64,000 nucleotides of DNA from the NCBI GenBank assembly GCA_949358305.1, contig OX442314.1, positions 16,609,060 to 16,673,059 on the forward strand, in the 5' to 3' direction. Source of the stretch: Strigamia acuminata. Its lineage: Eukaryota; Arthropoda; Chilopoda; Geophilomorpha; Linotaeniidae. The notes below the pieces were generated by a model that was not told where the DNA came from, made no database searches, and saw nothing but the letters and a program-made list of their open reading frames with translations. Positions 2,708-64,000 of this stretch are shown here, in pieces. Position 1 is the first letter of the stretch, and every line of letters begins with the position of its first letter. The position numbers and the translations under genes were made by a program.

Positions 2708-2788
2708 AAATCAGTGAATCCGGACAGAAATAAGTAGAAAACAGCATCGTAAAGCCGACCACGCCGAATTTTGACCGAAAATTTCAAA

Positions 2789-46024: not shown

Positions 46025-47336
46025 ATGTTGTACCTGATTCCTCTCTTGGCGCTTTTGGGAGTGTCTTCAGCCCTTTACACGCCTCAAGTATATTTTAAAT
46101 TACCACTTCTGGTTGAATAATAACTAATAATTTTTCTAATTTCAGGGTTGGTCGAAGACATTTGAAATTGCATTATTTACTGTATTTAAAAGTATTTATT
46201 ACAGAGTTTAACTCGCATGTAAACGAGCGCATCATTGGGGGCAAGGAAGTTCGTAAAAACAGCTATCCGTTCATGGTGAGTTGCTAAATAACCGCATTTT
46301 AATCGTTGCTATTTAAAGTTCTTGCAAATAGGTTCGTATTGAATCGTTCAAGGCCGATGGTGTTAGATCTCTTTGCGGAGCGACTCTTTTACACGAAGAC
46401 TTTGTCGTAACGGCTGCCCATTGCGTACATAACAGCCAGTATTCATAAATTTATTTAAAATATATCAATTTAAATAAATTTATTTATTACACTGATAAAT
46501 CTTAATTCCGACAGATCGCCCATAACGTCACTCAAACTGCATTTTGGCGACCATCAATTGAGGCATGAAGATGACACTCAAACAACAATGGACATTCCAT
46601 TGGCTAATGTAGAAGCACTTTACAAGCACTTTATTTCAGATTTTCTCGATTAATTGTACAAATTGATTATGTAGATCCACCATCACTCCAGTTTTAGCAG
46701 ATTAACTAAAAAAAACGACATAGCTATCATAAAATTGCCACAGAAGGCTCCAATTTCAAAACATGTAAGCCCTATTTGCGTTGCAAGTGCGTCAACTGTG
46801 TCCGGACATAAAATTGGAACTGCAATGGGCTGGGGAATTACCAAAAATATTCAAGATGGTACGATTTTACGCCAGTATTCGCAAGTTAGAACGCGCGAAT
46901 TTTTTACTAGGGTCATCGTCGAGACATATCCTCAAAGATTTTTGAATAATTTGCAGGTGGCGTTGCCAGTGAGGTTTTGAAAGAAGTGAATCTTCCTATT
47001 TTGCCACATGCCGACTGCCGATTGATGAACCTATTCAAACCCGATACAATGATTTGCGCTGGAAATACAAAAGGAATCTTTACTTCATTTTGCATAGTAT
47101 GTTAATGCGTCCTCCCTACTTGTCTGCTCAAAATTAATTTTATTAATTTTTTTGTGCAGGGTGATTCTGGTGGACCATTCGTTGTGAAAGATGGAAAATT
47201 TTCACTTGTTGGAATTACATCGTTCGTCTCTGGAAAGGGATGTGTTGCTGATGGATACGGCGTGGTGTTTGTGCGTGTCTCAAGCTACATTCCATGGCTG
47301 CAAGATACAATGGGATCTGCTCTTTGCATTGATTAA
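46025..47336 (+). CDS. Secreted S1 serine protease, gene A of the cluster
   Basis: Exons: 46025-46087, 46146 (one base), 46205-46275, 46332-46438, 46515-46608, 46675-46858, 46957-47096, 47160-47336. They sum to 837 bases, giving 278 residues. Signal peptide about 1-16 (LIPLLALLGVSSA), then a short propeptide cut after Arg30 before IIGG, giving an S1 zymogen. Catalytic residues: His75 in TAAHC, Asp127 in NDIA, Ser223 in GDSGGP. Cysteine pairs expected for the fold are present. The residue six before the catalytic Ser (S1 pocket, chymotrypsin 189) is Ser, as in chymotrypsin, whereas copies B-F have Ala. The residue before GDSGGP is Ile (Ser in the others). It is the most diverged member and has a weak TATA box. 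Likely role: secreted digestive protease with chymotrypsin-like specificity (inference). Confidence 0.9.
46146..46146 (+). other. Putative single-nucleotide exon of gene A
   Basis: The base G lies between TTTCAG and GTTGGT, 58 bases after the exon 1 donor and 58 bases before exon 2. It converts exon 2 from frame +1 into frame and makes codon 22 GAG. Gene A also has an alternative acceptor two bases further on (CAGAG) that would restore frame without the G. Confidence 0.6.
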
Positions 47337-47396
47337 TATAAAATCTGTAACTGACAAGTAGTAAAAGAATTATGTAAAATTCATTTTAGCTGCAAA

Positions 47397-47402
47397 AATA
47401 AA
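47397..47402 (+). terminator. Polyadenylation signal of gene A
   Basis: AATAAA, about 60 bases after the stop codon of gene A. Confidence 0.6.
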
Positions 47403-47633
47403 AACGTTAACAGTTTATCAGTAGTCTGTTGCTTGATTAATTGTGACCCAAAGTCAAAACCATATTTTCTTTTTGGATTTACTTACAAATGAAGTCATTA
47501 ATGAACATCATTACAGACAGTTTAATTAAAAAATCGTCTTTTTCATGAATTATCTGGTGTAACAAAAATTAAATCAGGCATTGCTGCTAACATGCATTTT
47601 TAAGGTTCTGTTAGCTATAATGTATTGTATGTA

Positions 47634-47842
47634 TGTACACCCGTGGAAAATAAAAACTTTCCTTATATTCAGCTGTTTTAAGTTTACTCTTGACCAGGTC
47701 TCATGTTTGACCCTAACAATAGTATTAAAAATTAGACCGGGCAGACTGGGCAAATCATGATGTCAATGGTTCTTTACGCCACCTTGTGGTCAAAGTTAAA
47801 ACAGCTGTATTGCAGAAAAGTTTTTTTTTCCGTGGGTGTACA
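47634..47842. mobile_element. MITE with about 47-base terminal inverted repeats
   Basis: The left end TGTACACCCGTGGAAAAT continues to ...CAGCTGTTTTAA. The right end read on the other strand gives TGTACACCCACGGAAAAA continuing to ...CAGCTGTTTTAA. It is non-coding. It shares its ends with 47837-47924 and 49766-50358, so it belongs to a local family within the protease cluster. Confidence 0.7.
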
Positions 47843-47924
47843 TCCGTAGACAAAAAACTTCCCTTGTGTGCAGCAATTTTACAGTATACAAGGGAAATGT
47901 TTTTTTTTTGTCCACAGGTGTACA
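47837..47924. mobile_element. Small related MITE abutting the previous one
   Basis: This 88-base palindromic element runs from TGTACATCCGTAGACAAAA to an end that reads TGTACACCTGTGGACAAAA on the other strand, with CCCTTG inside each arm. It shares the six bases TGTACA with the element to its left, so one probably inserted into the end of the other. Confidence 0.6.
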
Positions 47925-48155
47925 AACAGCTTGGCTTCTCTGACTGACATCAACAGCATCGCTCCTAGATAAATACTGTAATCCTGAATAGAGAGCAACT
48001 ATGTGTACATCACACAATACTCTGTATAGTAGTAATAAAATAAACAGAAATTAGCGAACTATTGTGAAACTTGCAAAATTTAAAAAACTAGCAAATTTTC
48101 AATAGCAAGGATAATTCTATTGATTGATTGATTGAACAACACACATCCTCAGACG

Positions 48156-48163
48156 TATAAATA
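48156..48163 (+). promoter_or_regulatory. TATA box of protease gene B
   Basis: TATAAATA lies 67 bases before the ATG at 48223. Within about 35 bases downstream there is a pyrimidine-rich stretch (CCTACCTCACATTT) that could hold the transcription start. Confidence 0.65.
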
Positions 48164-48222
48164 CTCGAGATATTCTTAATCCTACCTCACATTTGAAGAA
48201 ATTACACTACAGTAACTTCACC

Positions 48223-49519
48223 ATGTTGCACCTGATTCCTCTCTTTGCTCTCTTGGCAGCGTCGTCAGCCATGTTCACTCCCGAGGTATATGTTTTTAAA
48301 ACATGACTTCTTTTCATTTAATAATAACTTTTACTTTTTCTCATTTCAGGGTTGGTTCAAAACTTTTAAATTGCAATTAAACTAATTTAAAAAAAAATTG
48401 TTTAAAAAATATTTATTGCAGACTTTTTGGATTTTGACTCAACAGTAGATGAACGCATCATCGGTGGCGGTGAAGCTCGTAAAAACAGCTATCCATTTAT
48501 GGTAAGTTGCTAAATCATTGCATTCAATCGTTGTAAATGTTGTTTTTGCAAACAGGTTCGTGTTGAAGCAAAAACCGCTGACGGATCAGGATTTCTTTGC
48601 GGAGCAAGTCTCTTGCACGAAAACTACGTTGTAACCGCAGCACATTGCGTTTATAGCAGCGAGTAAATACATTTATTTTAAATATAAAAATGTATTATAT
48701 TTATTAATGAATAATGTGCACTTATAAATGTCCATCGTAGATCACGCATAACGTCCATCAGACTGCATTTTGGTGACCACAACATGTGGCAACACGATAA
48801 TACCCAATCGTCAATGGACATTCCAATGGCTAATGTAAAACATATTTTTATTTTTATTTCTCATTTTCATAAATGTGTTACATAGGCCGAACGTCACGCC
48901 CAATACAACGAAAGAACTATCGAAAACGACATTGCCCTCATCAGATTGCCTCGAAAGGCCCCAATTTCAGGTCATGTTAGCCCTATTTGCGTTGGCAGTG
49001 CGTCGACCGTTGCCAAACAAAATATTGGAAGGGCATTGGGATGGGGACTAACCAGCAATCCTCAACAAGGTATAAGTTTATACCCAGTGCACTGTTGCAA
49101 CAATTGCTAATGTATAACTTTAACTTACCGTGCAGGTGGACAGGTTAGCGAAGTTTTGAAACAAGTCGATCTTCCGATTTTGCCAAATGCCGAATGCCGT
49201 TTGTTTGGAACATTCAATCCAAACACAATGATTTGTGGTGGAAATACAAGAGGGATCTCAGCTGCCGTTTGCTCAGTATATTAATTAAACTCAAGACCAT
49301 CTGTCCTAAAAATACATTTGTGTAATTTTTTTAATGTAGGGAGATTCTGGTGGACCATTCGTGGTGGTAGACAATGGAAGATATGTTCATACTGGAATTT
49401 CTTCGTACGTTTCTGGATATGGTTGTGTAGCTGTTGGATACGGTGTTGTGTTTGTACGTGTCTCAAATTACATTCCATGGCTGCAAGCCAGAATGGGATC
49501 GGCTCTTTGCGTTGTCTAA
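48223..49519 (+). CDS. Secreted S1 serine protease, gene B of the cluster
   Basis: Exons: 48223-48285, 48350 (one base), 48422-48501, 48556-48662, 48741-48834, 48886-49069, 49136-49275, 49340-49519. They sum to 849 bases, giving 282 residues. Signal peptide about 1-16 (LIPLFALLAASSA), propeptide rich in Asp and Phe, cut after Arg33 before IIGG. Triad: His78 (TAAHC), Asp130 (NDIA), Ser226 (GDSGGP). The S1 position 189 is Ala and position 190 Val, so it is not trypsin-like. B is the key copy for the one-base exon. Exon 1 ends in phase 0 after GAG, the next exon starts AC TTT TTG, and no other AG in the region restores frame. Without the extra G, translation reaches TAG within ten codons. Confidence 0.93.
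48350..48350 (+). other. Putative single-nucleotide exon of gene B (decisive copy)
   Basis: The base G lies between CATTTCAG and GTTGGTTC, 64 bases after the exon 1 donor and 71 bases before exon 2. Without it no GT..AG combination that I can find joins exon 1 to exon 2 in frame. With it codon 22 is GAC. Confidence 0.7.
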
Positions 49520-49543
49520 TATGAAATCTGTAAACAACAATTG

Positions 49544-49549
49544 AATAAA
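49544..49549 (+). terminator. Polyadenylation signal of gene B
   Basis: AATAAA, 25 bases after the stop codon of gene B. Confidence 0.6.
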
Positions 49550-49765
49550 AATTTCTTACTAGAGTTAAAACACTAAAAGTTATCTGTCAAATTCATTTTA
49601 ACTGCAAATATTAAAACTTTTGATTGTTTATTTGCAAAACTTTAAACTGTTTTGCTTGTTTACCTTATGACTTAAATAAAAATAAGGTCAAAAATATTTC
49701 TTTTTTAAATACGGTAAAAACTTACAAACTAAGCGCCTAAATGATAATACCGTAATTATTTTTCC

Positions 49766-50358
49766 TGTATACCCATGAACATAAAAAAAAACTTCCCTGT
49801 AGTACAGCTGGTAAGAAGTTCAGAACTTCATGTGAATGCAGGGATTAATACGTAAAATTACGATGCAAGGGTCTACAACCTACCCTAAATAGCAGAATTC
49901 GCTAACAAATTATTGGTTGAAATTTCAACCAACAATTTGAAATTTCACACTGGATCGGTGAAGTTAAAAGGGGCGCCATCTGGGTTCGACTCCTGGCTTA
50001 GGACTCCTCGGAGTGCGAGCAGATTCGTTTTTATTTAAACAAATAATTTGATAGTCAATTGTGGTACTTGGGGCTGCGGGTAGGTGCAGGTTCTAGGCCT
50101 ATTGAATCTTAATTACTGGTTGTACGTTTGTCCACAAAGAGGCATAAAAATTTTGAGGTGTAATGACATAAGCATTTTCCCGATCTATGAACTATATAGT
50201 CTGTGTTCTGTGGTAAAGGCAACACAGTTGACACACTTTCCAGACTCAAGAGACCAAGCCAAGACTGATGTCATTGAATCTCAATGGATTTTAAGCCACC
50301 TGGTAGATAAACTTGAAACAGCTAAACTAAAAGGAAGTTTTTTGTCTACAGGCGTACA
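49766..50358. mobile_element. Larger non-autonomous element sharing TIRs with the 47.6-kb MITEs
   Basis: The left end TGTATACCCATGAACATAAA reaches ACTTCCC and then ACAGCTG. The right end read on the other strand gives TGTACGCCTGTAGACAAAAA, ACTTCC and then AGCTG. The ends resemble those at 47634 and 47837. The interior of about 500 bases includes GGTTCGACTCC (a B-box-like motif near 49986) and has no transposase frame. Confidence 0.5.
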
Positions 50359-50380
50359 CGTGAACAAACAAGATAACAGT

Positions 50381-50480
50381 ATGAAAATTTAACTTGAATG
50401 TCCAGCTAACAAGCGCTAAGAAATAAAACATCTGCCAAATTGCTGTCTTTGCAAAATTCACTTTCAATTTTCTACTCACG
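50381..50480 (+). promoter_or_regulatory. Conserved upstream module of gene C
   Basis: The block ATGAAAATTTAACTTGAATG followed by CTAACAAG, AATAAAAC, ATCTG and TTGCTG also occurs upstream of D (53275-53370), E (56831-56925), F (59380-59460) and at 63857-63953. The C version is the most diverged. Its fixed position about 100-180 bases upstream of each ATG suggests a shared enhancer or promoter module, although common descent alone could explain much of it. Confidence 0.5.
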
Positions 50481-50496
50481 TCAAATATAAAATTCA

Positions 50497-50533
50497 TATA
50501 AATATCTGACGAAACAAGAATTCATCCTCAGTC
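50497..50533 (+). promoter_or_regulatory. TATA box and initiator of gene C
   Basis: TATAAAT at 50497-50503 is followed at 50528-50533 by TCAGTC, a match to the arthropod initiator consensus TCAGT. The spacing of about 32 bases is right for TATA to start site. Transcription from the initiator A would give a 5' leader of about 31 bases. Confidence 0.7.
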
Positions 50534-50560
50534 GAGTTGAACCTTCCTGGACATCGTACC

Positions 50561-51842
50561 ATGTTTCAAATTATTCCTCTTTTCGGCCTCTTGGCCCTGT
50601 CTTCAGCTATGCTGTTACCCGAAGTACCATTTTTACAGTTTCTTGTAATATTGACATTTAATATAAATTTTCTTTTCCAATTTAGGGTATAGACCCAGTA
50701 TTCATCGAATGGTATTGAATAAAAATGTTAGATTTTATAAATTTCCTTTTATAGATTTTCAGTACTCGGGAAACACTGCTGATGAGCGCATTATTGGTGG
50801 AAAAGAGGCTCGCAAAAATAGTCATCCATTTGTGGTAAGTATGTAGAATTTTAGATTTTGAAGTAAACTAAATTGGCGATTGTTTCTCAAGGTTCGAATT
50901 GAAGCCACAAATGTCGATGGAGCTGGATTCTTGTGTGGAGCGACACTGCTAAGTGAAAACTATGTAGTAACCGCTGCACATTGTGTACACGACAGCTAGT
51001 AATTTCCCAACACTTTTTATTATGTTTTTAATGTTAAATTAATTTTTTTTTCATAGTACACCAATTAAAAAAATGACTCTTCATTTTGGTGACCATCACC
51101 AATATTATAAAGAAGATACACAAACAACGATGAACGTCCCCATGGCAAATGTAAAAATCGTGTTTTATCTGTCTTTAATTTTCTTAAATATTGTTTGAAT
51201 TTGATTTTAGATTGTTTACCATTCTAAATACGATGAAAGATACATCATAAATGACATTGCCCTTATTCGCCTGCCCAGCAAAGCACCAATTTCAGCTCAC
51301 GTGAAACCATTGTGCATAACCTCGACTGCTACCACAGCTAAACATACCGATGCAACAGCCATCGGCTGGGGATTAACCAGAGACGAAAATGAAGGTAAAA
51401 CGATTTAAACGTAAACGAGCAAATGTAATTATTACAAAACATGTACAGGTGGATCCGTTAGTGAGGTGCTGAAAGATATCACTCTTCCAATCCTTCCGAA
51501 TGCTGAATGTCGTTTGTACGGTGTCTTCAATCCAACCACTATGATGTGCGCAGGCAACACTTTGGGACTTCGAGCAGCAATTTGTTCCGTAAGTCTAACA
51601 ATCCATCCAATTTGCTTTTTTTTTCTAGTATGCTGTTATAATTTTATTTGTAGGGTGATTCTGGTGGACCATTGGTTGTAAAGACTGGTACAGCAGGTAC
51701 ACAATATTCCCTCGCCGGTCTCACTTCCTTCAGTTCTGCAAAAGGATGTGTTGCTGTTGGGTATGGTGCAGTGTTCACTCGATTGTCCGGTTTCATCCCT
51801 TGGTTGCAGGGTTATATGAAATCTGAACTGTGCATAGTTTAA
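50561..51842 (+). CDS. Secreted S1 serine protease, gene C of the cluster
   Basis: Exons: 50561-50623, 50686 (one base), 50755-50834, 50892-50998, 51057-51150, 51211-51394, 51449-51588, 51654-51842. They sum to 858 bases, giving 285 residues. Signal peptide about 1-16 (IIPLFGLLALSSA), activation after Arg33 before IIGG, triad His78, Asp130, Ser226. It is three residues longer than B because of a small insertion in the last exon (TGTAGTQYSL). S1 position 189 is Ala. It is nearly identical to gene D over exons and introns, so the two are a recent duplicate pair. An alternative acceptor eight bases into exon 2 (TTTTCAG) would also keep the frame if the one-base exon were skipped. Confidence 0.92.
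50686..50686 (+). other. Putative single-nucleotide exon of gene C
   Basis: The base G lies between CAATTTAG and GTATAGAC, 62 bases after the exon 1 donor and 68 before exon 2. It makes codon 22 GAT. Confidence 0.6.
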
Positions 51843-51854
51843 GACGTAATGAGA

Positions 51855-51860
51855 AATAAA
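51855..51860 (+). terminator. Polyadenylation signal of gene C
   Basis: AATAAA, 13 bases after the stop codon of gene C; a second AATAAA follows directly. Confidence 0.6.
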
Positions 51861-52155
51861 AATAAAGCATGATGTGATTCATTGGCTGTGAATTGTCTAC
51901 CTGAATTTTGTGATTATTTACACTACAGTTCATGAAAAAAAAAACAATATAAAGCAGCATGGGCAAACACAAATATAAATAAAAAACAAGTTTTTCGTGC
52001 GGAAATTTTCGTTCTTTGTGTGGAGTGATGTTTTAATTGGTACCAGCAATTCAGGATGGGGGAATGTGGAATTGTGTGTGCTAAGACTTAGTTTCTTTTG
52101 CAATTTCAATGACAGTTAATTAATTAATCCTACAACTTAAGTTGGAAAATCAGTC

Positions 52156-52299
52156 TATAAAAGACCACCACAAGACAAGTTCCTTGGTCATTCTCCACTC
52201 TTGTTCATCATGGTGATGCTTAAGGCTGTTAGTACTATTCCAATTCCGTTCCAACTCTGTTCCAACGTATTCAGGGCCGCATTAAGAGCTAAACCATAA
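52156..52299 (+). pseudogene. Orphan core promoter with short interrupted first exon, copy 1
   Basis: TATAAAAG (52156-52163) is followed about 32 bases later by TCATTC (a possible initiator) and then by ATG at 52210. The frame starts MVMLKAVSTIP and runs 29 codons to TAA at about 52299. The last part of the frame lies inside a MITE that begins at 52272. This layout looks like the first exon of a secreted-protein gene (for example a cuticle or similar small protein) cut off by the element. The protein family is not identifiable. A second copy is at 55225. Confidence 0.4.
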
Positions 52300-52407
52300 T
52301 GATATTTTAGTGCCTCCAAATATGGAAAATGAAAAATTTCTATGTTGCCCCATTCCCTTGATGCCCTACGCACATCCTTATTTTTCTTTTTGGTTAATCC
52401 AGCCCTG
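52272..52407. mobile_element. hAT-like MITE, copy between genes C and D
   Basis: The left end CAGGGCCGCATTAAG and the right end read on the other strand CAGGGCTGGATTAAC are imperfect inverted repeats of the CAGGG type often seen in hAT elements. No 8-base target duplication is evident. The same element lies at 55361-55496, carried along by the duplication that made D. Confidence 0.5.
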
Positions 52408-53274
52408 GCATAACCTGAATAGGTTTATAAGGCCATAAACCATACAACCGTCTCTCTCTGTGATTTTGTTTACACGTGTCGTGCAGGCGGTACTAACTGG
52501 ACGACCTTAATATAAGTCCAGATGGCGTCTATCCACTCCCACACAACAACTCATTCTCAAGTGTGTGATTCAATAATCGTTTGAATTTATTATTACAAAT
52601 GCAGATAAATTAGCGTAGAGTAAGTTAAAAGGGGTTATGATATTACAATTTGCATTCTTTTCTGTCAATAAGTAAGTTTTAAAACTTGTATGAAAAAATC
52701 AAATAAATTTTATGAATTTTGAAGATTACGAGATAAAAGCGAAACCAACTCGAGAAAGACGAGACATCTTGAACATAGATGTTTGATATGAGACTCTACA
52801 GTAAATATTGAGTCTTTGGTCACACAGCAAAACCCAAAACATTGCAGTGTCACTTATGTATAATCATTCATTTACCTGAAATTTGTTATAAATGGCCATT
52901 ATGTTTGCAACGAGAACAAACAGGTCATAATTAAACCAAAAAGGACAAAATTTCAAATTGAAATATAATTGTAATAATTAATGTACAGAATTTACTAGTA
53001 TTAATTAAAATTAATTTTGAAGGAGCGTATACTGTGTAACAGGATCAGCTTGAGGTGCTGAAGATACTTTCAAAATGAGAAATACGTCACTGCTTTATCC
53101 ATTTCCGAAATTGTATAAATTGTCCCAGGACATTCCAACACAAAATGTTTCGCCCAAATTGCATGACCAAAATGACCATAAAAATTGTATAGCCGAGCCG
53201 ACATAAAATGAAAATGATTTCATTAGGCTCGCTTCGCTGCGCTGCTTTCGGCAACAACAAATAGACAACACAAT

Positions 53275-53370
53275 GTGAAAATTTAACTTGAATGACCAAC
53301 TAACAAGTCTTATTAATAAAAACAGCTGTCACACTGCTGCCTCCGCGAAAGTAATTCTCTTTCAAGTTTC
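53275..53370 (+). promoter_or_regulatory. Conserved upstream module of gene D
   Basis: This is almost identical to 56831-56925 and 63857-63953. It contains AACTTGAATGACC, CTAACAAGTCTTATTAATAA, CAGCTGTCAC and CTGCCTCCGCGAAAG. Confidence 0.55.
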
Positions 53371-53390
53371 TAAGCAAATTAAACAAAATC

Positions 53391-53398
53391 TATATAAA
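53391..53398 (+). promoter_or_regulatory. TATA box of gene D
   Basis: TATATAAA lies 66 bases before the ATG of gene D, in the same position as in E and in the partial copy at 63974. Confidence 0.65.
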
Positions 53399-53456
53399 TT
53401 CGTTGCAAACTAAAATTTCATCTTTAGTCGAATCGACCTTTCCTGGACTTCACATC

Positions 53457-54923
53457 ATGTTTCAAATTATTCCTCTCTTCAGCCTCTTGGCCCTGTCTTC
53501 AGCTATGCTGTTACCCGAAGTACCATTTTTACAGTTTCTTGTAATATTGACATTTAATATAAATTTTCTTTTCCAATTTAGGGTATAGGCCCAGTATTCA
53601 TCAAATGGTATTGAATAAAAATGTTAGATTTTATAAATTTCCTCTTATAGATTTTCAGTACTCGGGAAACACTGCTGATGAGCGCATTATTGGTGGAAAA
53701 GAGGCTCGCAAAAATAGTCATCCATTTGTGGTAAGTATGTAGAATTTTAGATTTTGAAGTAAACTAAATTGGCGATTGTTTCTCAAGGTTCGAATTGAAG
53801 CCACAAACGTTGACGGAGCTGGATTCTTGTGTGGAGCGACACTGCTAAGTGAAAACTATGTAGTAACCGCTGCACATTGTGTACACGACAGCTAGTAATT
53901 TTCCAACACTTTTTATTATGTTTTTAATATTAAATTAAATTTTTTTTTATAGTACACCAGTTAAAAAAATTACTCTTCATTTTGGTGACCATCACTATTT
54001 TTATAAAGACGATACACAAACAACAATGAACGTCCCCATGGCAAATGTAAAAATCGTCTTTTTTCTGTCTTTAATTTTCTTAAATATTGTTTGAATTTGA
54101 TTTTAGATTGTTTACCATTCTAAATACGATGAAAGATACATCACAAATGACATTGCCCTTATTCGCCTTCCCAGCAAAGCACCAATTTCAGCTCACGTAA
54201 AACCATTGTGCATAACCTCTACTGCTACCACAGCTAAACATACGGACGCAACAGCCATCGGTTGGGGATTAACCAGAGACGAACATGAAGGTAAAACGAT
54301 TTAAACGTAAACAAACAAATTAACCGTTTTGGTGCAATTATTCCTTTGTTGCACCAAAATGCGCTCATTGCGCATATCTGCAGTGCAGATCCAAAGTGTT
54401 CTGGGCTCAAATTTGGAGTTTTGGCACACTCTTGAATTCACAACCAAACATACAACACATCTTGTCGTTGTTTTTATTATTATTACTATTATTATAATTA
54501 TTATTATTACAAAACATTTACAACTCTAGGTGGAACCATTAGTGAGGTGCTGAAAGATATCACTCTTCCAATCCTTCCAAATGCTGAATGTCGTTTGTAC
54601 GGTGTTTTCAATCCAACCACTATGATGTGCGCAGGCAACACTTTGGGACTTCGAGCAGCAATTTGTTCCGTAAGTCTAACAATACATCCAATTTGCTTTT
54701 TTTTTCTAGTATGCTGTTATAATTTTATTTGTAGGGTGATTCTGGTGGACCATTGGTTGTAAAGACTGGTACAGCAGGTACACAATATTCCCTCGCCGGT
54801 CTCACTTCCTTCAGTTCTGCAAAAGGATGTGTTGCTGTTGGATATGGTGCAGTGTTCACTCGATTGGCCGGTTTCATCCCTTGGTTGCAGGGTTATATGA
54901 AATCTGAACTGTGCATAGTTTAA
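53457..54923 (+). CDS. Secreted S1 serine protease, gene D of the cluster
   Basis: Exons: 53457-53519, 53582 (one base), 53651-53730, 53788-53894, 53953-54046, 54107-54290, 54530-54669, 54735-54923. They sum to 858 bases, giving 285 residues. The features match gene C: signal peptide, Arg33-IIGG activation site, His78, Asp130, Ser226, Ala at S1 position 189, and the same insertion in the last exon. Substitutions from C are few and often silent. The intron between the 184- and 140-base exons is expanded to 239 bases by an insertion that contains inverted repeats. It is the recent duplicate of C. Confidence 0.92.
53582..53582 (+). other. Putative single-nucleotide exon of gene D
   Basis: The base G lies between CAATTTAG and GTATAGGC, with the same spacing as in gene C (62 and 68 bases). 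Confidence 0.6.
54304..54529. repeat. Insertion in an intron of gene D with inverted repeats
   Basis: Relative to gene C, this intron gains about 185 bases. The insert has a perfect 11-base inverted repeat (TTTTGGTGCAA at 54327-54337 and its complement at 54349-54359), a second palindrome (ATCTGCAGTGCAGAT near 54376) and a (TTA)n-like tract at 54472-54510. It may be a small non-autonomous element. No clear target duplication is seen. Confidence 0.5.
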
Positions 54924-54935
54924 GACGAAATGAGT

Positions 54936-54941
54936 AATAAA
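54936..54941 (+). terminator. Polyadenylation signal of gene D
   Basis: AATAAA, 13 bases after the stop codon of gene D. Confidence 0.6.
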
Positions 54942-55224
54942 AATAAAGCATTGGCTGTGAATTATCTGCCTGAATTTTGTGATTATTTACACTACAGTTC
55001 ATGAAAAAAAAAACAATATAAAGCAGCATGGGCAAACACAAATATAAATAAACAACAAGTTTTTCGTGAGGAAATTTTCGTTCTTTGTGTGGAGTGATGT
55101 TTTAATTGGTACCAGCAATTCAGGATGGGTGAATGTGGAATTGCGTGTGCTAAGACTTAGTTTCTTTTGCAATTTCAATGACAGTTAATTAATTAATCCT
55201 ACAACTTAAGTTGGACAATCAGTC

Positions 55225-55378
55225 TATAAAAGACCACCACAAGCCAAGTTCCTTGGTCATTCTCCACTCTTGTTCATCATGGTGATGCTTAAGGCTGTTA
55301 GTACTGTCAGTACTGTTCCAATTCCGTTCCAACTCTGTTCCAACTCTGTTTCAACGTATTCAGGGCCGCATTAAGAGC
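55225..55378 (+). pseudogene. Orphan core promoter with short first exon, copy 2
   Basis: TATAAAAG is at 55225-55232 and ATG at 55279, with the same spacing as the copy at 52156. After MVMLKAVST the frame differs because of a short tandem gain (GTCAGTACT) and another length change near AACTCTGTTTCAAC. It still runs into the MITE at 55361 and stops soon after. The frame is not conserved, so this reads as decaying sequence. Confidence 0.4.
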
Positions 55379-55496
55379 TAAACCATAATGATATTTTAGT
55401 GCCTCCAAATATGGAAAATGAAAAATCTCTATGTTGCCCCATTCCCTTGATGCCCTAAGCACATGCTTATTTTCCTTTTTGGTTAATCCAGCTCTG
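55361..55496. mobile_element. hAT-like MITE, duplicated copy
   Basis: This is the counterpart of 52272-52407, with the same internal sequence and a few substitutions (the right end reads GCTCTG instead of GCCCTG). Confidence 0.5.
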
Positions 55497-55587
55497 GCAT
55501 AAACTGAATAAGTTTATAAGGCCATAAACCATACAACCGTCTCTCTCTGATTTTCTTTACACGTGTCGTGCAGGCGGTACTAACTGG

Positions 55588-55735
55588 TGTCGCGTCAAGC
55601 TATTGCAGAGCACCGCAAACAGTAGCTTGTCGCGTTTAGCTATTCCTAACAATGTTACGCCCATTGCTAGGCGCGAATCGCAATGTCGCGCCTAGCTATG
55701 TCGCGCCCTGTACGCATCACCTAACTGGACCGGTT
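55588..55735. repeat. GC-rich TGTCGCG-containing repeat
   Basis: This is present downstream of D but absent from the equivalent place downstream of C. It contains repeated TGTCGCG and CTAGCTAT/TAGCTATT words on both strands. It is much more GC-rich than its surroundings. No coding capacity. It directly precedes the TTTTAGCGA element. Confidence 0.55.
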
Positions 55736-55739
55736 ATAG

Positions 55740-56167
55740 TCATTTTAGCAACGCTCATTTTAGCGATTTTTACAAAAAAGTCCCGTTTTAGCGATCACGT
55801 TTTAGCGACAATAAGGTAATTTTCCAGTAGTGATCGACACGTTTTAGCAAGCGCCACATTTTAGCGATCGCTACGTTTTAGCGACGTGACACGATTTACC
55901 GCGACAAGCCGGCTCAAAAAAGTGGTTTGCATAAAAAAACCAGTAAGGTTAGGTTCGTGGGGGGTCAAGAGGGGGCTCAGCCCCCCTTGTTAGCCCTTCT
56001 CAGGAATTAAACCTAAACTATATGGTTAGGTTAATATTAGTGCCATTTTAGCAACCATCACTTTAGCGAACATGTCATTTTAGCGATTTTTGTGTCGCTA
56101 AAATGACATGTTCGCTAAAATGGTGTGTTGCTAAAATGAAATCGCTAAAATAAAATCGCTAAAATGA
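55740..56167. mobile_element. Fold-back element built from TTTTAGCGA repeats
   Basis: It starts TCATTTTAGC and ends GCTAAAATGA, its exact complement. More than ten copies of TTTTAGCGA or TTTTAGCAA occur inside, in forward orientation in the left part and reversed in the right part. Near the right end 56062-56086 and 56095-56119 form a perfect 25-base inverted repeat with an 8-base loop. A second G/C hairpin (GGGGGCTCAGCCCCC) lies near 55973-55987. No transposase frame. It was inserted after the C/D duplication, since C's downstream region lacks it. Confidence 0.65.
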
Positions 56168-56830
56168 AGTACATCCATTTGTATTCTTTTCTGTCAATAA
56201 GTAAGTTTTAAAACCCAAAAACAATTTCACTTAACTTGTATTAAAAAAATCAAATGAATTTTATGAATTTTGAGGATTACGAGATAAAAACGAAACCAAC
56301 TCGAGAAAGACGAGACATCTTGAACATAGATGTTTGATATGAGACACTAGAGTAAATATTGAGTCTTTGGTCACACAGCTAAACCCAAAACATTGCAGTG
56401 TCACTCATGTATAATCATTCATTTACCTGAAGTTTGTTATAAATGGCCATTATGTTTGCAACGAGAACAAACAGGTCATAATTAAACCGAAAAAGAAAAA
56501 ATTTCAAATTGAAATAATTATTATAATTAATGTACAGAATTTACTACAGGTAGTATTAATTAAAATTAATTTTGAAGGAGCATATACTGTATAACAGGAT
56601 CAGCTTGAGGTGCTGAAGATACTTTCAAAATGAGAAACTACGTCACTGCTTTATCCATCTCCGAAATTGTATAAATTGTCCCAGGACATTCCAACACAAA
56701 ATGTTTCGCCCAAATTGCATGACCAAAATGACCATAAAAATTGTATAGCCGAGCCGACATAAAATGAAAATGATTTCATTAGGCTCGCTTCGCTGCGCTG
56801 CTTTCGGCAACAACAAATAGACAACACAAT

Positions 56831-56925
56831 GTGAAAATTTAACTTGAATGACCAACTAACAAGTCTTATTAATAAAAACAGCTGTCACACTGCTGCCTCC
56901 GCGAAAGTAATTCTCTTTCAAGTTC
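56831..56925 (+). promoter_or_regulatory. Conserved upstream module of gene E
   Basis: Nearly identical to 53275-53370, including the CAGCTGTCAC and CTGCCTCCGCGAAAG words. Confidence 0.55.
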
Positions 56926-56944
56926 TTTCAAATTAAACAAAATC

Positions 56945-56952
56945 TATATAAA
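56945..56952 (+). promoter_or_regulatory. TATA box of gene E
   Basis: TATATAAA, 66 bases before the ATG of gene E. Confidence 0.65.
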
Positions 56953-57010
56953 CATGTTGCAAACTAAAAATTCATCTTTAGTCGAATCGACCTTTCCTGG
57001 ACCTCACATC

Positions 57011-58313
57011 ATGTTTCAAATTATTCCTCTCTTCAGCCTCTTGGCTCTGTCTGCAGCTATGCTGACACCAGAAGTATTTGCAACTAATTTTAATATTCAG
57101 TGTGTAATATATAACATAAAATTTATTTTTTAATATAGGGTAGGTCCAAAATTCATCGCTTATGAGATGTAATTGGATACGTATATTGAATAATTTTTTG
57201 TAGATTTTGAGGGCTGGGAAAGCACTATTGACGAGCGCATTATTGGTGGAAACGAAGCGCGCAAAAACAGTTACCCTTTTATAGTAAGTATACGAACAAG
57301 GACAAGGACTATTTTCGATTTTGGATAAAACTAAAGTAAACTAATATTTTTTCGTTTAAAGGTTCGAATTGAAGCCGTTGATGCTAGCGGAGCTGGATAC
57401 TTGTGCGGAGGAACTCTTCTCAGTGACGAATATGTAGTAACCGCAGCACATTGTGTCCAAAGTAGCGAGTAAGTCTACATTTAGATATTTTGTTGTAAAT
57501 TTTGATTGTTATACTTAAAAAAAAATATTGTAATAGATCACCAATTCGTTCTATTACACTTCATTTCGGTGACCATTATCTTAGTCGTCAAGATAATACA
57601 CAAACAACGATGACTATCCCCATGGCAAATGTAAAGATTTTCTTTTCAACTTTTTTCCGGTTGTTGAAAATAAAATCGCATTTAATTTTAGATTGCTGTC
57701 CATCCTCTGTACAGTGAGAGACAAATTACAAACGACATTGCCCTTATTTACCTTCCGCGCAAAGCACCCATTTCAGCTCACGTCAAAACTCTGTGCGTGA
57801 CCTCTGCCGATACCGCATACGAACATAAAAAGGGAACCGCCCTCGGTTGGGGATTAACCAAAAACGATCATGAAGGTAAAAGAAAGTTAAGCATCAACGA
57901 ACATATTATAAAATGTGATTCACTTATAGGTGGAGATGTAAGTGAAGTGCTCAAAGAAGTTAGTCTTCCAATTCTTCAAGCCAGGGATTGTTATTTGTTT
58001 GGTACTTTCAATCCAAAATCTCAGATTTGTGCAGGCAACACGAGAGGACTCCCAGCAGCAATTTGCTCCGTAATGACCTCAAATTTTGCTATACTTTTTA
58101 GTACAGACCTAATCTAAATGTTGATTTGTTTAGGGTGATTCTGGTGGACCATTTGTTGTGAACACTGGTAAAGAATATGCCCTCACAGGCCTCTCTTCGT
58201 ACGGTTCGGCAAAAGGATGTGTTTCTGTTGGATATGGTGTAGTGTTCACTCGATTGTCCGCCTTCATTCCCTGGATTCAAAGATATGTGGGAACTGGTCT
58301 GTGTATTGTATAA
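57011..58313 (+). CDS. Secreted S1 serine protease, gene E of the cluster
   Basis: Exons: 57011-57073, 57139 (one base), 57204-57283, 57362-57468, 57537-57630, 57692-57875, 57930-58069, 58134-58313. They sum to 849 bases, giving 282 residues. Signal peptide about 1-16 (IIPLFSLLALSAA), propeptide cut after Arg33 before IIGG, His78 in TAAHC, Asp130 in NDIA, Ser226 in GDSGGP, Ala at S1 position 189. The motif after Asp130 reads ALIYLP rather than ALIRLP. It is closest to gene F. The promoter is shared with D by duplication but the coding part is distinct. Confidence 0.92.
57139..57139 (+). other. Putative single-nucleotide exon of gene E
   Basis: The base G lies between AATATAG and GTAGGTCC, 65 bases after the exon 1 donor and 64 before exon 2. 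It makes codon 22 GAT. A GAG acceptor eight bases into exon 2 is the alternative. Confidence 0.6.
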
Positions 58314-58317
58314 GATG

Positions 58318-58323
58318 AATAAA
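58318..58323 (+). terminator. Polyadenylation signal of gene E
   Basis: AATAAA, five bases after the stop codon of gene E; the 3' untranslated region would be very short. Confidence 0.6.
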
Positions 58324-59379
58324 GCTTGATGTGATTTATTGATTGACAAACAATGAAATGTAATTGTTATGGCAGCAATTATTCGACTGTTGCTAAAACA
58401 GTGAGAACCATCACGTTAATAATACGTTAATAATAGTCGTAATCTTGAAACATGCAGATTATTCTTTAGATTTGTTTATACATAACAACAGATACATATA
58501 CAAATGAAGACAATTACCTAAACTAAAGTTATTACAGTACCTGACAGCAGTCGAAGAAATTCTTGTGAGCATAAATAAAATTTTCAGTTATAGATAGATA
58601 GGTTAAAATAAAACATGGATTACGAGTAGGTTGGAGCCACCTCTTTAATGCGAGCGCCTAAAAGAAAGTTACACAATTTTTCATTTTTATTTAAAAAAAA
58701 AATAAAAAAAGTGTTTTCTTTTTGTTTCTTCTAAAATATGTTCAATGAATGAAATAAAATGAGTGGTATCAACATCAATAATAATTCCACTGACATTATT
58801 TCAAATTCCTTATTTTTCAAACAAAAGAAACGACTACACGTATACGACTACATTTCAAAAGTTTAGCAAGTTGGCTAAAAACAGTCACGATAAGTTCAAA
58901 GATAAAAAATCGTAGCTACAACTGCTATCCTACGAGGACACCCCTTTTTGGCGAAATTGTAAATCAGCGCCAGCAACGGAAATAGCGACTGGTGCAACTC
59001 TATTTGTTAGCAAACCTTAACCTACCACAAGCTCACAAGCAAATCTCACAATGCCACGATTGGAAACATTTCCCGTTAAGAGATGGCGCTTAAACAAACC
59101 AGGGAATCAACAACGTAACCCAATGGGCACAGACGCAATAATAAGTAATATAAACTAATATTAATTGAAATTAATTTTGATGAAACATGTACAACAGGAT
59201 GAGCTTGAGGCACATGCAGAAGGGCACCATAGATACTTTTAAAATGAGAAACAGTACCGTACTGCTTTACCAATCTCCCAAACACAACCGTTTTGCTCAA
59301 CCTGCGATCAAAATAACCATAAAAATGATTTCGTTAGATTCACTTCGCGCTGTGTGCCAAATACAAATAAACAACACAA
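58324..59379. other. Intergenic region between genes E and F
   Basis: No gene recognised. The last 250 bases (from about 59135) resemble the regions upstream of D and E and the right window edge (ATTAATTGAAATTAATTTTGA, then ACAACAGGA). The first part shows no similarity to the other intergenic segments. Confidence 0.45.
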
Positions 59380-59460
59380 TATGAAAATTTAACTTGAATG
59401 ACTAACTAACAAGCCTTATTAATAAAAACATCTGTCGTATTGCTGCCTCCGCGAAAGTAT
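59380..59460 (+). promoter_or_regulatory. Conserved upstream module of gene F
   Basis: The block is similar to those of D and E but shorter, since the segment holding TAATTCTCTTTCAAG is lost. The TATA equivalent at about 59482 is TATACAAG, a weaker match. Confidence 0.5.
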
Positions 59461-59547
59461 CTTCGCAAATTGATTCAAATCTATACAAGTATGTTACAAA
59501 CTAAAAATTCATCTTTAGTCGAATCGACCTTTCCTGGACTTCACACC

Positions 59548-61231
59548 ATGTTTCAAATTATTCCTCTCCTCAGCCTCTTGGCTCTGTCTTCAGCTATGCT
59601 GACACCAGAAGTACTCGCAATTAATTTCAATCTTCAGTGTTTAACATATAAACATCTATATATTTTAATGTAGGGTAGGTTCAAAATTTCATTGCTTCTG
59701 GGATCTAAATGAATGCGATAAACACCTGTATCTTCACCTAACTAAGAACGATGTCTCCAAAGTATTTGAGACTCTACTCCCTCTTACTCCGTTTAGTGAA
59801 CAAATTATGGGCCCCTTACCTCCGACCGGTCTTTCACCATCTCAAATGACCCCTCTGGTATCACCTACCCTTTATCAGAAGAATAAGATCTGTGGTCATC
59901 TGCTCCAGTAGTCTCAATGGTCTGTCGGTCTTTGGAAGGAATTTCCCCCGGAGATCCTTGAGACAATCTTCTCGTGCTCAGCCCACCAACTGCAGATTAC
60001 AGAAACGAATGTACAAATATATCTTAAAGAATCAACTTCATTAACAATAACACAGTATATTGTATATACTGTTAAATAGATAAATAAATGATTTTTATAG
60101 ACTTTGAGGGCTGGGAAAGCACTATTGACGAGCGCATTATTGGTGGAACAGAAGCCCGCAAAAATAGTTACCCTTTTATAGTAAGTATACGAAAAAGGAC
60201 GAGGACTATTTTCGAATTTGGATAAAACTACGGAAACTGATGGTTTTTCGTTTACAGGTTCGAATTGAAGCCACTAATATGGGCGGAAGTGAATTATTGT
60301 GCGGAGGAACTCTTATCAATGACTTTTATGTAGTAACCGCAGCACATTGTGTCGAATATACCGAGTAAGTCTATAATTACATATTTTGTTGCAAATTTTA
60401 ATTAATTTGATTTTTGTCTTCTATTGAAAAAAAAAATATTACAATAGCAATCCAGTTCGTTCTATTACACTTCATTTCGGTGACCATTATCTTAATCGTC
60501 CAGACGATACACAAACAACGATGAGCATCCCCATGAAAAATGTAAAGATTTTTTTTTGCCTTTCTACAGGTTGTTAAAAATGAAATTGCGTTTAATTTTA
60601 GATCGAGGTGCATCCTTTATATAATGAAAGACGCCTAACAAATGACATTGCCCTTATTCGCCTTCCCAGCAAAGCACCGATTTCAGCTCACGTCAAACCA
60701 ATATGCGTAACCTCCGCTACAACCGCAGCTAAACATGAAAAGGCAACAGCCATCGGTTGGGGATTAACCAAAAACGGTCAAGAAGGTAAAAAAAATTAAC
60801 CGTAAACAAACAGAGAGCGTATTACAAAATATGAATCACTTAAAGGTGGAGACGTTAGTGAAGTGCTCAAAGAAGTTAGTCTTCCAATCCTTCCAAATGA
60901 TGAATGTCGTTTGTTCTTTTTTTTCAATCCAAATATAATGATTTGTGCCGGGAACACAAAAGGGCTGCCAGCAGCAATTTGCTCCGTAATAACCTCGGAA
61001 TTTGTTATACTTTTTTGTATTGACCTGATCTAATAGTTGATTTGTGTATAGGGTGATTCTGGTGGACCATTTGTTTTGCACACTGGTTCAGAATATGCCC
61101 TCACAGGCCTCTCTTCGTTCGGTTCTAAAAACGGATGTGTTTTTGTTGGTTACGGCGTAGTGTTCACTCGATTGTCCGCCTTCATTCCCTGGATGCAAAA
61201 GCATATGGGAACTGGTCTGTGTATTGTATAA
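59548..61231 (+). CDS. Secreted S1 serine protease, gene F of the cluster
   Basis: Exons: 59548-59610, 59674 (one base), 60101-60180, 60258-60364, 60448-60541, 60602-60785, 60846-60985, 61052-61231. They sum to 849 bases, giving 282 residues. Signal peptide about 1-16 (IIPLLSLLALSSA), propeptide matching gene E and cut after Arg33 before IIGG, His78, Asp130, Ser226, Ala at S1 position 189. The second half of intron 1 is enlarged to 426 bases by an insert with F-box-like coding similarity. Exons remain intact, so the insert appears tolerated. Confidence 0.92.
59674..59674 (+). other. Putative single-nucleotide exon of gene F
   Basis: The base G lies between AATGTAG and GTAGGTTC, 63 bases after the exon 1 donor but 426 bases before exon 2 because of an insertion. 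The AG-G-GT context is kept despite the expansion. It makes codon 22 GAC. Confidence 0.6.
59708..60079 (+). pseudogene. F-box-like coding fragment inserted in intron 1 of gene F
   Basis: This is present only in gene F. One frame is open from 59708 to a TAG at about 60079, apart from one internal TAG near 59910. It contains FPPEILETIFSCS, which resembles the start of an F-box (L/F-P-x-E-(I/L)-L-x-x-I-F), preceded by Ser/Pro-rich sequence. The fragment is less AT-rich than the intron. It is probably a copied piece of an F-box gene or of a mobile element carrying one. No match can be confirmed by eye. Confidence 0.4.
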
Positions 61232-63165: not shown

Positions 63166-63856
63166 GGCGTTTGGTTTTGTTGGGTTTGATTTTGGTTTGG
63201 TTTGGTTTGGTTTGGGTTAAAGTTTTGTTGGATTTTGGTTTAAGTTTTCCATTATTTTGCAAAATTGTATTTTTATTTTATTTTTATTTTGCTGTATACA
63301 GTATATATTGTTTGATTTATGGCAAAAATTGATCTATGGTTTGCGGGTGAACGGCGGGTGAACAGCTAGTGATGTTTACTAATTTAAAATATTTCGAAAC
63401 AAAACTTGACACCCTTTTCATTTTTGAAACCTTAATTTTAGCAACACGGCACAATTGGAATGGAAAAAAGGTTTATCAAATATAATATTCAACCTATAAT
63501 TGAGAGGTTTCACTTCTTTCATCTGGTCTAAAGCACACACTTTTTTTAAAAAATAAAATGTCTGGTTGGACTTTACATAAGGTAACAAGCTCTTTTATAA
63601 GGATCACGTAGGTCATCAATAAGTTATTTCCAACAAGAACATTTAAATGGTCATAATATAGTACCATACTGAAAAAGGTGAAATTTAAAATTTAAATATA
63701 ATTATAATATATAATATAATCTAATATTAATTAAAATTAATTTTGATGAAACATATACAACAGGAGAAACTTGAGGCGATCAAAATAACCATAAAAATGA
63801 TTTCATTAGACTCACATCGGTGCGCTGTGCGCGCCAGCTACAAACAAACAACACAA

Positions 63857-63953
63857 TATGAAAATTTTTCTTGAATGACCTACTAACAAGTCTTATTAAT
63901 AAAAACATCTGTCATACTGCCGCCTCCGCAAAAGTAATTCTCTTTCAAGTTTC
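63857..63953 (+). promoter_or_regulatory. Conserved upstream module of a seventh protease copy beyond the window
   Basis: Nearly identical to the modules of D and E, including AATGACCTACTAACAAG, TAATAAAAACATCTGTCA and CCGCCTCCGCAAAAG. The surrounding 63715-64000 also matches the D and E upstream regions. A gene start is expected about 40 bases past the right edge. Confidence 0.65.
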
Positions 63954-63981: not shown

Positions 63982-64000
63982 TTCGTTGCAAACTAAAAAA

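Follow-up and report, generated by a model that had tools for sequence, protein, structure and literature searches.

We analysed a window of 64,000 nucleotides (nt) from the genome of Strigamia acuminata (Chilopoda) and found in it six tandem genes for S1 proteases, here called A to F, all of them on the forward strand and rebuilt from the window sequence. When COX1 of this genome was searched, the first of the best 120 among at least 7,996 matches was the geophilomorph centipede Mecistocephalus marmoratus (85%), with horseshoe crabs next (83%). The window is taken to belong to chromosome 1. All six carry an AG, one G and a GT in direct succession (AG-G-GT) near the start of the coding sequence (CDS), downstream of the first exon. 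This isolated G is a candidate single-nucleotide (1-nt) exon, flanked by two putative introns that we refer to as 1a (phase 0) and 1b (phase 1).

Gene A (46025-47336; CDS 837 nt) would have eight exons, counting that of 1 nt: the G at 46146, which makes codon 22 GAG, lies between intron 1a (46088-46145, 58 nt) and intron 1b (46147-46204, 58 nt). In gene B (48223-49519; CDS 849 nt), the copy for which no in-frame single-intron alternative exists, the G at 48350 (codon 22 GAC) is enclosed by introns of 64 nt (48286-48349) and 71 nt (48351-48421). Genes C (50561-51842) and D (53457-54923), the latter a recent duplicate of the former, both have a CDS of 858 nt; in each the G (50686 and 53582, respectively) completes a GAT codon 22 between a 1a of 62 nt (50624-50685 and 53520-53581) and a 1b of 68 nt (50687-50754 and 53583-53650). 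Gene E (57011-58313; CDS 849 nt) has its G at 57139, again giving GAT, between introns of 65 nt (57074-57138) and 64 nt (57140-57203), while in gene F (59548-61231; CDS 849 nt) the G at 59674 (codon 22 GAC) follows a 1a of 63 nt (59611-59673) and precedes a 1b of 426 nt (59675-60100), longer than in the other copies. No stop codon precedes the terminal one in any of the six, and their introns are all of the GT-AG type and 51-98 nt long, except for two longer ones (239 and 426 nt). The 1b of gene F (59675-60100) contains about 360 extra nt that resemble an insertion, with both splice sites intact, and the 239 nt of intron 6 in gene D (54291-54529), against 54 nt in the near-identical copy C, suggest a recent insertion as well. 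C (50561-51842) and D (53457-54923) stem from a recent tandem duplication (synonymous divergence, dS, of 0.07) that, by eye, included their flanks.

A seventh copy, gene G, lies just past the window, at 64041-65360 on coordinates extended so that base 64000 of the window corresponds to base 16673059 of the contig (C1). It has a CDS of 849 nt, GAT as codon 22, and an AG-G-GT whose G, at 64169, is followed by GTATGT and flanked by introns of 65 and 64 nt. Because this copy lay outside the sequence available to the preliminary description of the locus, which had been made from the window alone, it serves as an independent check. In every gene from A to G, exon 1 is 63 nt long and ends in phase 0, exon 2 opens on the second base of a codon, and a single base stands between the AG and the GT, within GT-AG introns. 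A whole-genome search with exon 2 of gene B as the query (E value of at most 10) gave seven matches, which are genes A to G. As for A to F, the six sites stand in the rebuilt sequence exactly where the preliminary description had placed them, and its account of an exon 1 in phase 0, an exon 2 one base short, a G completing GAG, GAC or GAT as codon 22, six stop-free CDS of the lengths above, and flanking introns of 58-71 nt (426 nt in F) was reproduced gene by gene.

The seven proteins begin with a hydrophobic, signal-like stretch, continue with a short propeptide whose end is (D/N)ER, and have an activation site RIIGG and an S1 domain; RIIGG and the His/Asp/Ser triad are present in all of them. 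With the Pfam profile PF00089 (Trypsin; cut-off 20.6 bits), gene B scored 162 bits and H2, a gene on another contig described below, 187.4 bits, these two being the ones scanned. The closest solved structures by sequence are chains of elastase 1 and cathepsin G (among the best 60 of 553). The residue that we take to be position 189, located by its spacing from the catalytic Ser on the presumed numbering, is Ala or Ser in all seven and not the Asp of trypsin specificity; therefore, A to G are classed as chymotrypsin/elastase-like and not as trypsins. The ratio of nonsynonymous to synonymous divergence (dN/dS) is below 1 in all 21 gene pairs (0.11-0.76), indicating that the proteins are under constraint.

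As judged from the sequence, the G is required for the reading frame: gene B shows it outright, and the best-scoring model includes it in all seven genes. We enumerated every single intron with a GT or GC donor and an AG acceptor, of at least 25 nt, that lies between the start codon and RIIGG, keeps the frame and leaves no stop, once with donors from CDS base 31 onward and once with donors anywhere after the start codon. In gene B, neither donor range yields such an intron. The counts for the other genes are 12 (A), 22 (C), 22 (D), 16 (E), 13 (F) and 10 (G) in the narrower range, and 18, 24, 24, 17, 14 and 12, in the same order, in the wider one. From the donor of exon 1, the acceptors that can be used lie 2 or 23 bases within exon 2 in gene A, and 8 or 32 bases within it in C to G. 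Thus, gene B alone rules out a single-intron join outright, whereas such in-frame joins exist in the other six genes.

To choose among these joins, all solutions with one or two GT-AG introns (each of at least 45 nt, with a middle exon of up to 200 nt) were enumerated, and their N-termini were scored against five related proteins, P0001, P0002, P0003, P0006 and P0121. P0004 and P0005, which are also among the seven closest relatives found, were left out because the former begins inside the domain and the start of the latter is unrelated. The 1-nt exon model ranked first in all seven genes, among 20, 15, 45, 45, 20, 393 and 7 solutions for A to G, respectively, and its scores against those of the best single intron were 397 to 362 (A), 395 to 330 (C), 399 to 334 (D), 418 to 391 (E), 424 to 392 (F) and 404 to 386 (G). 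Identity to the spliced protein of gene B is 76% for P0001 and 72% for P0002, and the contigs that encode them, of 924 and 920 nt, each hold a whole frame of 281 amino acids. Since both contigs are shorter than the genomic span of gene B (1,297 nt), they should be spliced transcripts. The segments TPEDFLDY of P0001 and TPEDFLDF of P0002 align without gaps to TPEDFLDF of gene B, D22 included, and a D is also found at residue 22 in P0003 and in P0121 (the latter placed by eye). Hence, residue 22 is compatible with a G in four of the five relatives, compared as proteins only. A search of IMG/VR for loci encoding P0001 gave no relative. The genome of Strigamia maritima has been published, and no protein so named appears among the relatives listed (120 of 178, and 67); its orthologues may be missing, unassembled or wrongly annotated, or may just not bear the name.

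The probability of finding AG-N-GT by chance was estimated from dinucleotide shuffles of the intron 1 regions, with flanks of at least 45 nt. It appeared in 2.8% of the shuffles for A, 2.8% for B, 10.5% for C, 12.8% for D, 9.2% for E, 63% for F and 4.8% for G, the high rate in F being due to its long intron. The product for A, B, C and E is 7e-6, a value that is too small since the genes are not fully independent: only the comparison of A and B with C to G is near saturation at silent sites. Within these groups, dS is 0.60 between A and B and 0.42-0.56 between C or D and E to G, while between the groups it reaches 1.65-2.71 and the identity at fourfold sites (0.31-0.45) is close to the saturation expectation of 0.29. 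AGGGT is kept in all seven genes despite neutral sequence that is nearly randomised between the two groups. As a control, we looked for 5-mers shared by A, B, C, E and G at matching places (within 8 nt), dropping the first 6 and last 15 bases of each intron; D and F were omitted because D is a near-copy of C and the intron of F is long. Introns 3 to 7 of these five genes have no internal 5-mer in common at a matching place, and in the intron 1 region, roughly double in length, the only common ones are AGGGT and the AT-rich TAATA. Pairwise intron identity was uninformative, as gapped alignments of shuffled introns reach 0.75. A chance origin of AG-G-GT was rejected on the shuffle rates together with the conservation of AGGGT across the near-saturated split, and it is this split that, at the level of sequence, is telling for conservation beyond the background despite the partial dependence among copies.

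Considering the frame, the proteins of the relatives, the conservation and the likely sister genes described below, all of which support the 1-nt exon in the seven genes, we assign a rough probability of 0.9 to the reading that A to G carry a constitutive exon of one nucleotide, G, between introns 1a and 1b. Each pre-mRNA would then contain two GT-AG introns, 1a in phase 0 (58-65 nt) and 1b in phase 1 (58-71 nt, 426 in F), around the first base of codon 22, which falls in the propeptide of what is predicted to be a secreted chymotrypsin/elastase-like S1 zymogen; skipping the G would shift the frame and destroy the protein. With a single base separating the acceptor AG from the donor GT, simultaneous engagement of the two introns is unlikely. 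Splicing would rather proceed by intron definition, one intron at a time, a mode that suits the size of the flanking introns (58-71 nt except for 1b of F). With a weight matrix built from 35 other introns of A to G, the donor of 1a scores 5.6 in A and 4.6 in B, where the donor that follows the G scores 1.3; in C to G the respective values are -3.2 to 2.6 and 5.3-7.0. These scores predict that removal would start with 1a in A and B, and with 1b in C to G. Once 1a is removed, the second donor becomes slightly better in six of the seven genes and is unchanged in B. Among the GT sites of the region, the donor after the G ranks 4/6, 2/6, 2/8, 2/8, 1/9, 2/25 and 1/7 in A to G, and among the AG sites the acceptor before it ranks 2/6, 2/4, 1/6, 2/6, 1/7, 1/24 and 1/5.

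Several observations weigh against the 1-nt exon. In A and B the weak site is the donor that follows the G (GTTGGT), below which only one of the 35 reference donors scores, and in gene A it is outscored by three of the six GT sites compared; in C, D, F and G the weak site is the donor of 1a (-3.2 and -1.4). One other AG in gene D scores above the acceptor that precedes the G, and in both A and B so does the acceptor of exon 2. The margins over the best single intron are modest in E, F and G, and in-frame single introns remain in six of the seven genes, with the acceptor 8 bases within exon 2 found at the same place in all of C to G. One of the five relatives, P0006, has N at residue 22; since G cannot begin an Asn codon, P0006 must have a different base there or no such exon. 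If its structure were the same, its 1-nt exon would be an A. Finally, what the sequence shows is the sites, the frames, the conservation and the best fit to the proteins of the relatives; the presence of the G in S. acuminata mRNA, the order of removal and the origin of the exon are inferred from these.

Two rival explanations dispense with the small exon altogether. A single long intron of 117-136 nt (490 nt in F) with a non-canonical end (GT..CA/G), or with a TA donor one base later, would restore the frame equally well in all seven genes. Because the extra base is a G and the exon 2 acceptor ends in G, a GT..CA/G intron would even yield the same mature mRNA as a 1-nt exon; for this reason, the mRNA reading that was proposed earlier as support would not be proof on its own. 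This intron would nevertheless demand an odd dinucleotide in each of seven genes that otherwise have GT-AG introns throughout, and it accounts neither for AGGGT, nor for the doubled length, nor for the phase-1 intron of the likely sister genes, so we regard it as improbable. We give still less weight to a single canonical intron that uses another donor or acceptor and stays in frame without the G, for example by the acceptor at +2 in A or +8 in C to G. Such joins are available in A and in C to G, and the +8 acceptor stands at a matching place in the latter, but none exists in gene B, and in all six genes the canonical alternatives lose or swap residues kept in the relatives and score lower. 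The +8 acceptor itself (TTTCAG in C and D, TTTGAG in E to G) is poor, scoring 2.4 in C and D and -3.0 in G, and it does not account for AGGGT either.

Other explanations keep the sites and deny the exon. In spliceosomal twin introns, or stwintrons, one intron is nested in a splice site of another, so that removal of the inner one rebuilds the outer splice site and nothing is left in the mRNA. Two introns nearly end to end at AG-G-GT recall this arrangement; however, after removal of 1a the G would precede GT, the outer intron would need GG as its first two bases, and the frame requires the G, which makes a stwintron a very remote prospect. A ratchet point of recursive splicing with zero bases retained was likewise rejected, as one base stands between the AG and the GT and the frame needs it. 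Equally remote is the idea that the genes are frameshifted pseudogenes or contain base errors of the assembly. Tandem arrays do often include dead copies, a non-specific point and the sole one in favour, but here the same solution recurs in seven copies with intact frames, an intact triad and dN/dS below 1 in all 21 pairs, and the relatives carry the same protein. Moreover, the consensus quality of the S. acuminata assembly is reported as a quality value (QV) of 59.6 (PMC10556566), at which seven matching base errors are not credible.

How a 1-nt exon may have arisen is suggested by three genes, H1 to H3, on contig C4 (bases 13052079-13057039, minus strand), which are 29-31% identical to gene B. 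When the last exon was used as the query, the next best match after A to G was a C4 gene (E value 3.8e-8), with genes of contigs C6 and C3 nearly equal; with a query taken from the region of exons 2 and 3, a C3 gene came next and genes of the C4 cluster were not among the matches listed. The motif scan covered loci L012, L013 and L031 to L034, of which the C4 cluster in L031 was modelled. H1 to H3 have six introns in phases 1-0-2-0-1-0, the first of 59-73 nt. The series of A to G, 0-[1 nt]-1-0-2-0-1-0, equals that of H1 to H3 with a phase-0 intron added one base upstream of the phase-1 intron. For the five introns that follow, the alignment puts three at identical columns and two no more than one to three columns apart. 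In contrast to this layout, at least one such intron is missing from the C3, C6 and C10 genes, which have RIVGG or KIVGG and AAHC in one open frame. The C4 genes are likely the sisters of A to G because of this common intron layout, which is the basis of the assignment, and they show a plausible route by which 1-nt exons arise. In the simplest reading, a new intron would have been gained between the last full codon and the base that follows it, one base before the older phase-1 intron, thereby cutting off the last base of an ancestral exon 1 that ended one base into a codon. Alternatively, the extra intron may have been lost in the C4 genes instead of gained in A to G.

Single-nucleotide exons have been described in a few nuclear genes. 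In Arabidopsis, APC11 has a constitutive 1-nt exon, an A, within a stretch annotated as a single intron of 422 nt, and it was proven by cDNA and mutant constructs (PMC4674806). Its authors, Guo and Liu, considered it unlikely that sites one base apart are engaged together and favoured intron definition with stepwise removal (PMC4674806). The likeness to A to G extends to the two GT-AG introns around the exon, the need for it in the frame and the proposed sequential removal, whereas APC11 differs in being a plant gene, in its base and in having experimental proof. The 1-nt microexon of plant VPS55 is also kept across species, and in flowering plants it is present in one paralogue clade and not in the other; unlike A to G, it belongs to plants, has a well-conserved donor (GTRAGT) and gives two isoforms in early lineages (PMC8831610). 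In Fusarium CYP621A the 1-nt exon has the same AGGGT, is conserved in 20-24 genes, is required for the frame and is supported by RNA reads, in a genus where the median intron of F. graminearum measures 56 nt (PMC12940212). The differences are that it is a fungal P450 with RNA support, and that its authors propose a cryptic AGGGT site rescuing a lost base (PMC12940212), while the likely sisters of A to G suggest an added intron instead.

Among animals, a single-base exon is found in the mitochondrial cox1 of placozoans (PMC5436844, PMC6067683), for which an origin by insertion of an intron isolating one base has been proposed (PMC5436844). In this it resembles what is proposed for A to G; however, its introns are self-splicing group I introns and no spliceosome is involved (PMC5436844). 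Fungal mitochondria also have 1-nt exons, between group II introns (PMC12308204). Recursive-splicing ratchet points of Drosophila share with AG-G-GT an acceptor that adjoins a donor and, as predicted for A to G, a stepwise removal, but there AG and GT are joined, no base is kept and the introns are long, in contrast to the one base kept and the introns of about 60 nt in A to G (PMC8605326). The introduction of another Drosophila paper names APC11 as the 1-bp example and gives animal examples down to 3 bp (PMC7392893); two further articles do no more than cite APC11 (PMC8056616, PMC10808074), three others proved unrelated (PMC7725694, PMC5306281, PMC8706089), and from a 2026 review of non-canonical splicing the terms 'single nucleotide', '1-nt', '1 nt' and 'one nucleotide' are absent (PMC13149111). 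We found no animal nuclear 1-nt exon in the collection of open-licence full texts searched, a scope that most subscription journals fall outside. The preliminary description, which had named APC11 alone, overstated the rarity of 1-nt exons, given VPS55, CYP621A and the mitochondrial cases; its expectation that a family-wide conserved animal example would be new agrees with our search.

Within the literature searched, the exon of A to G is apparently the first such case in an animal nuclear genome, and the comparative evidence for it is unusually clear. If this is true, the range of single-nucleotide exons, so far plants and fungi, also takes in animal nuclear genes, and the array offers seven natural variants of one site, with differing donor and acceptor strengths, in which to study how the spliceosome deals with sites one base apart. 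A fuller scenario joins all the parts: the first spliceosomal 1-nt exon of an animal nuclear genome, held by at least seven paralogues since before A and B split from C to G, created by an intron gain one base ahead of a pre-existing phase-1 intron, and spliced stepwise with an order that depends on the gene (1a leading in A and B, 1b in C to G). This combination is tentative and, in its entirety, rather doubtful. Exons of 1 nt tend to escape gene finders, as noted for plants (PMC8831610) and Fusarium (PMC12940212), and entire gene families may carry wrongly annotated N-termini as a result.

Two other features of the window were noted. By eye, a common block around AACTTGAATG and CTAACAAG lies upstream of C, D, E and F (e.g., 53279-53320, 56832-56880 and 59383-59430) and also near the end of the window (63855-63905); it may be a common promoter region or a remnant of the duplications. 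Far upstream of the array, at 2753-7987 on the forward strand, there is an unbroken frame of 1744 amino acids for a Pao-type retrotransposon polyprotein, with matches to the Pao peptidase A17 and the integrase zinc-binding domains, and with matches below the cut-off to the integrase core and the reverse transcriptase.

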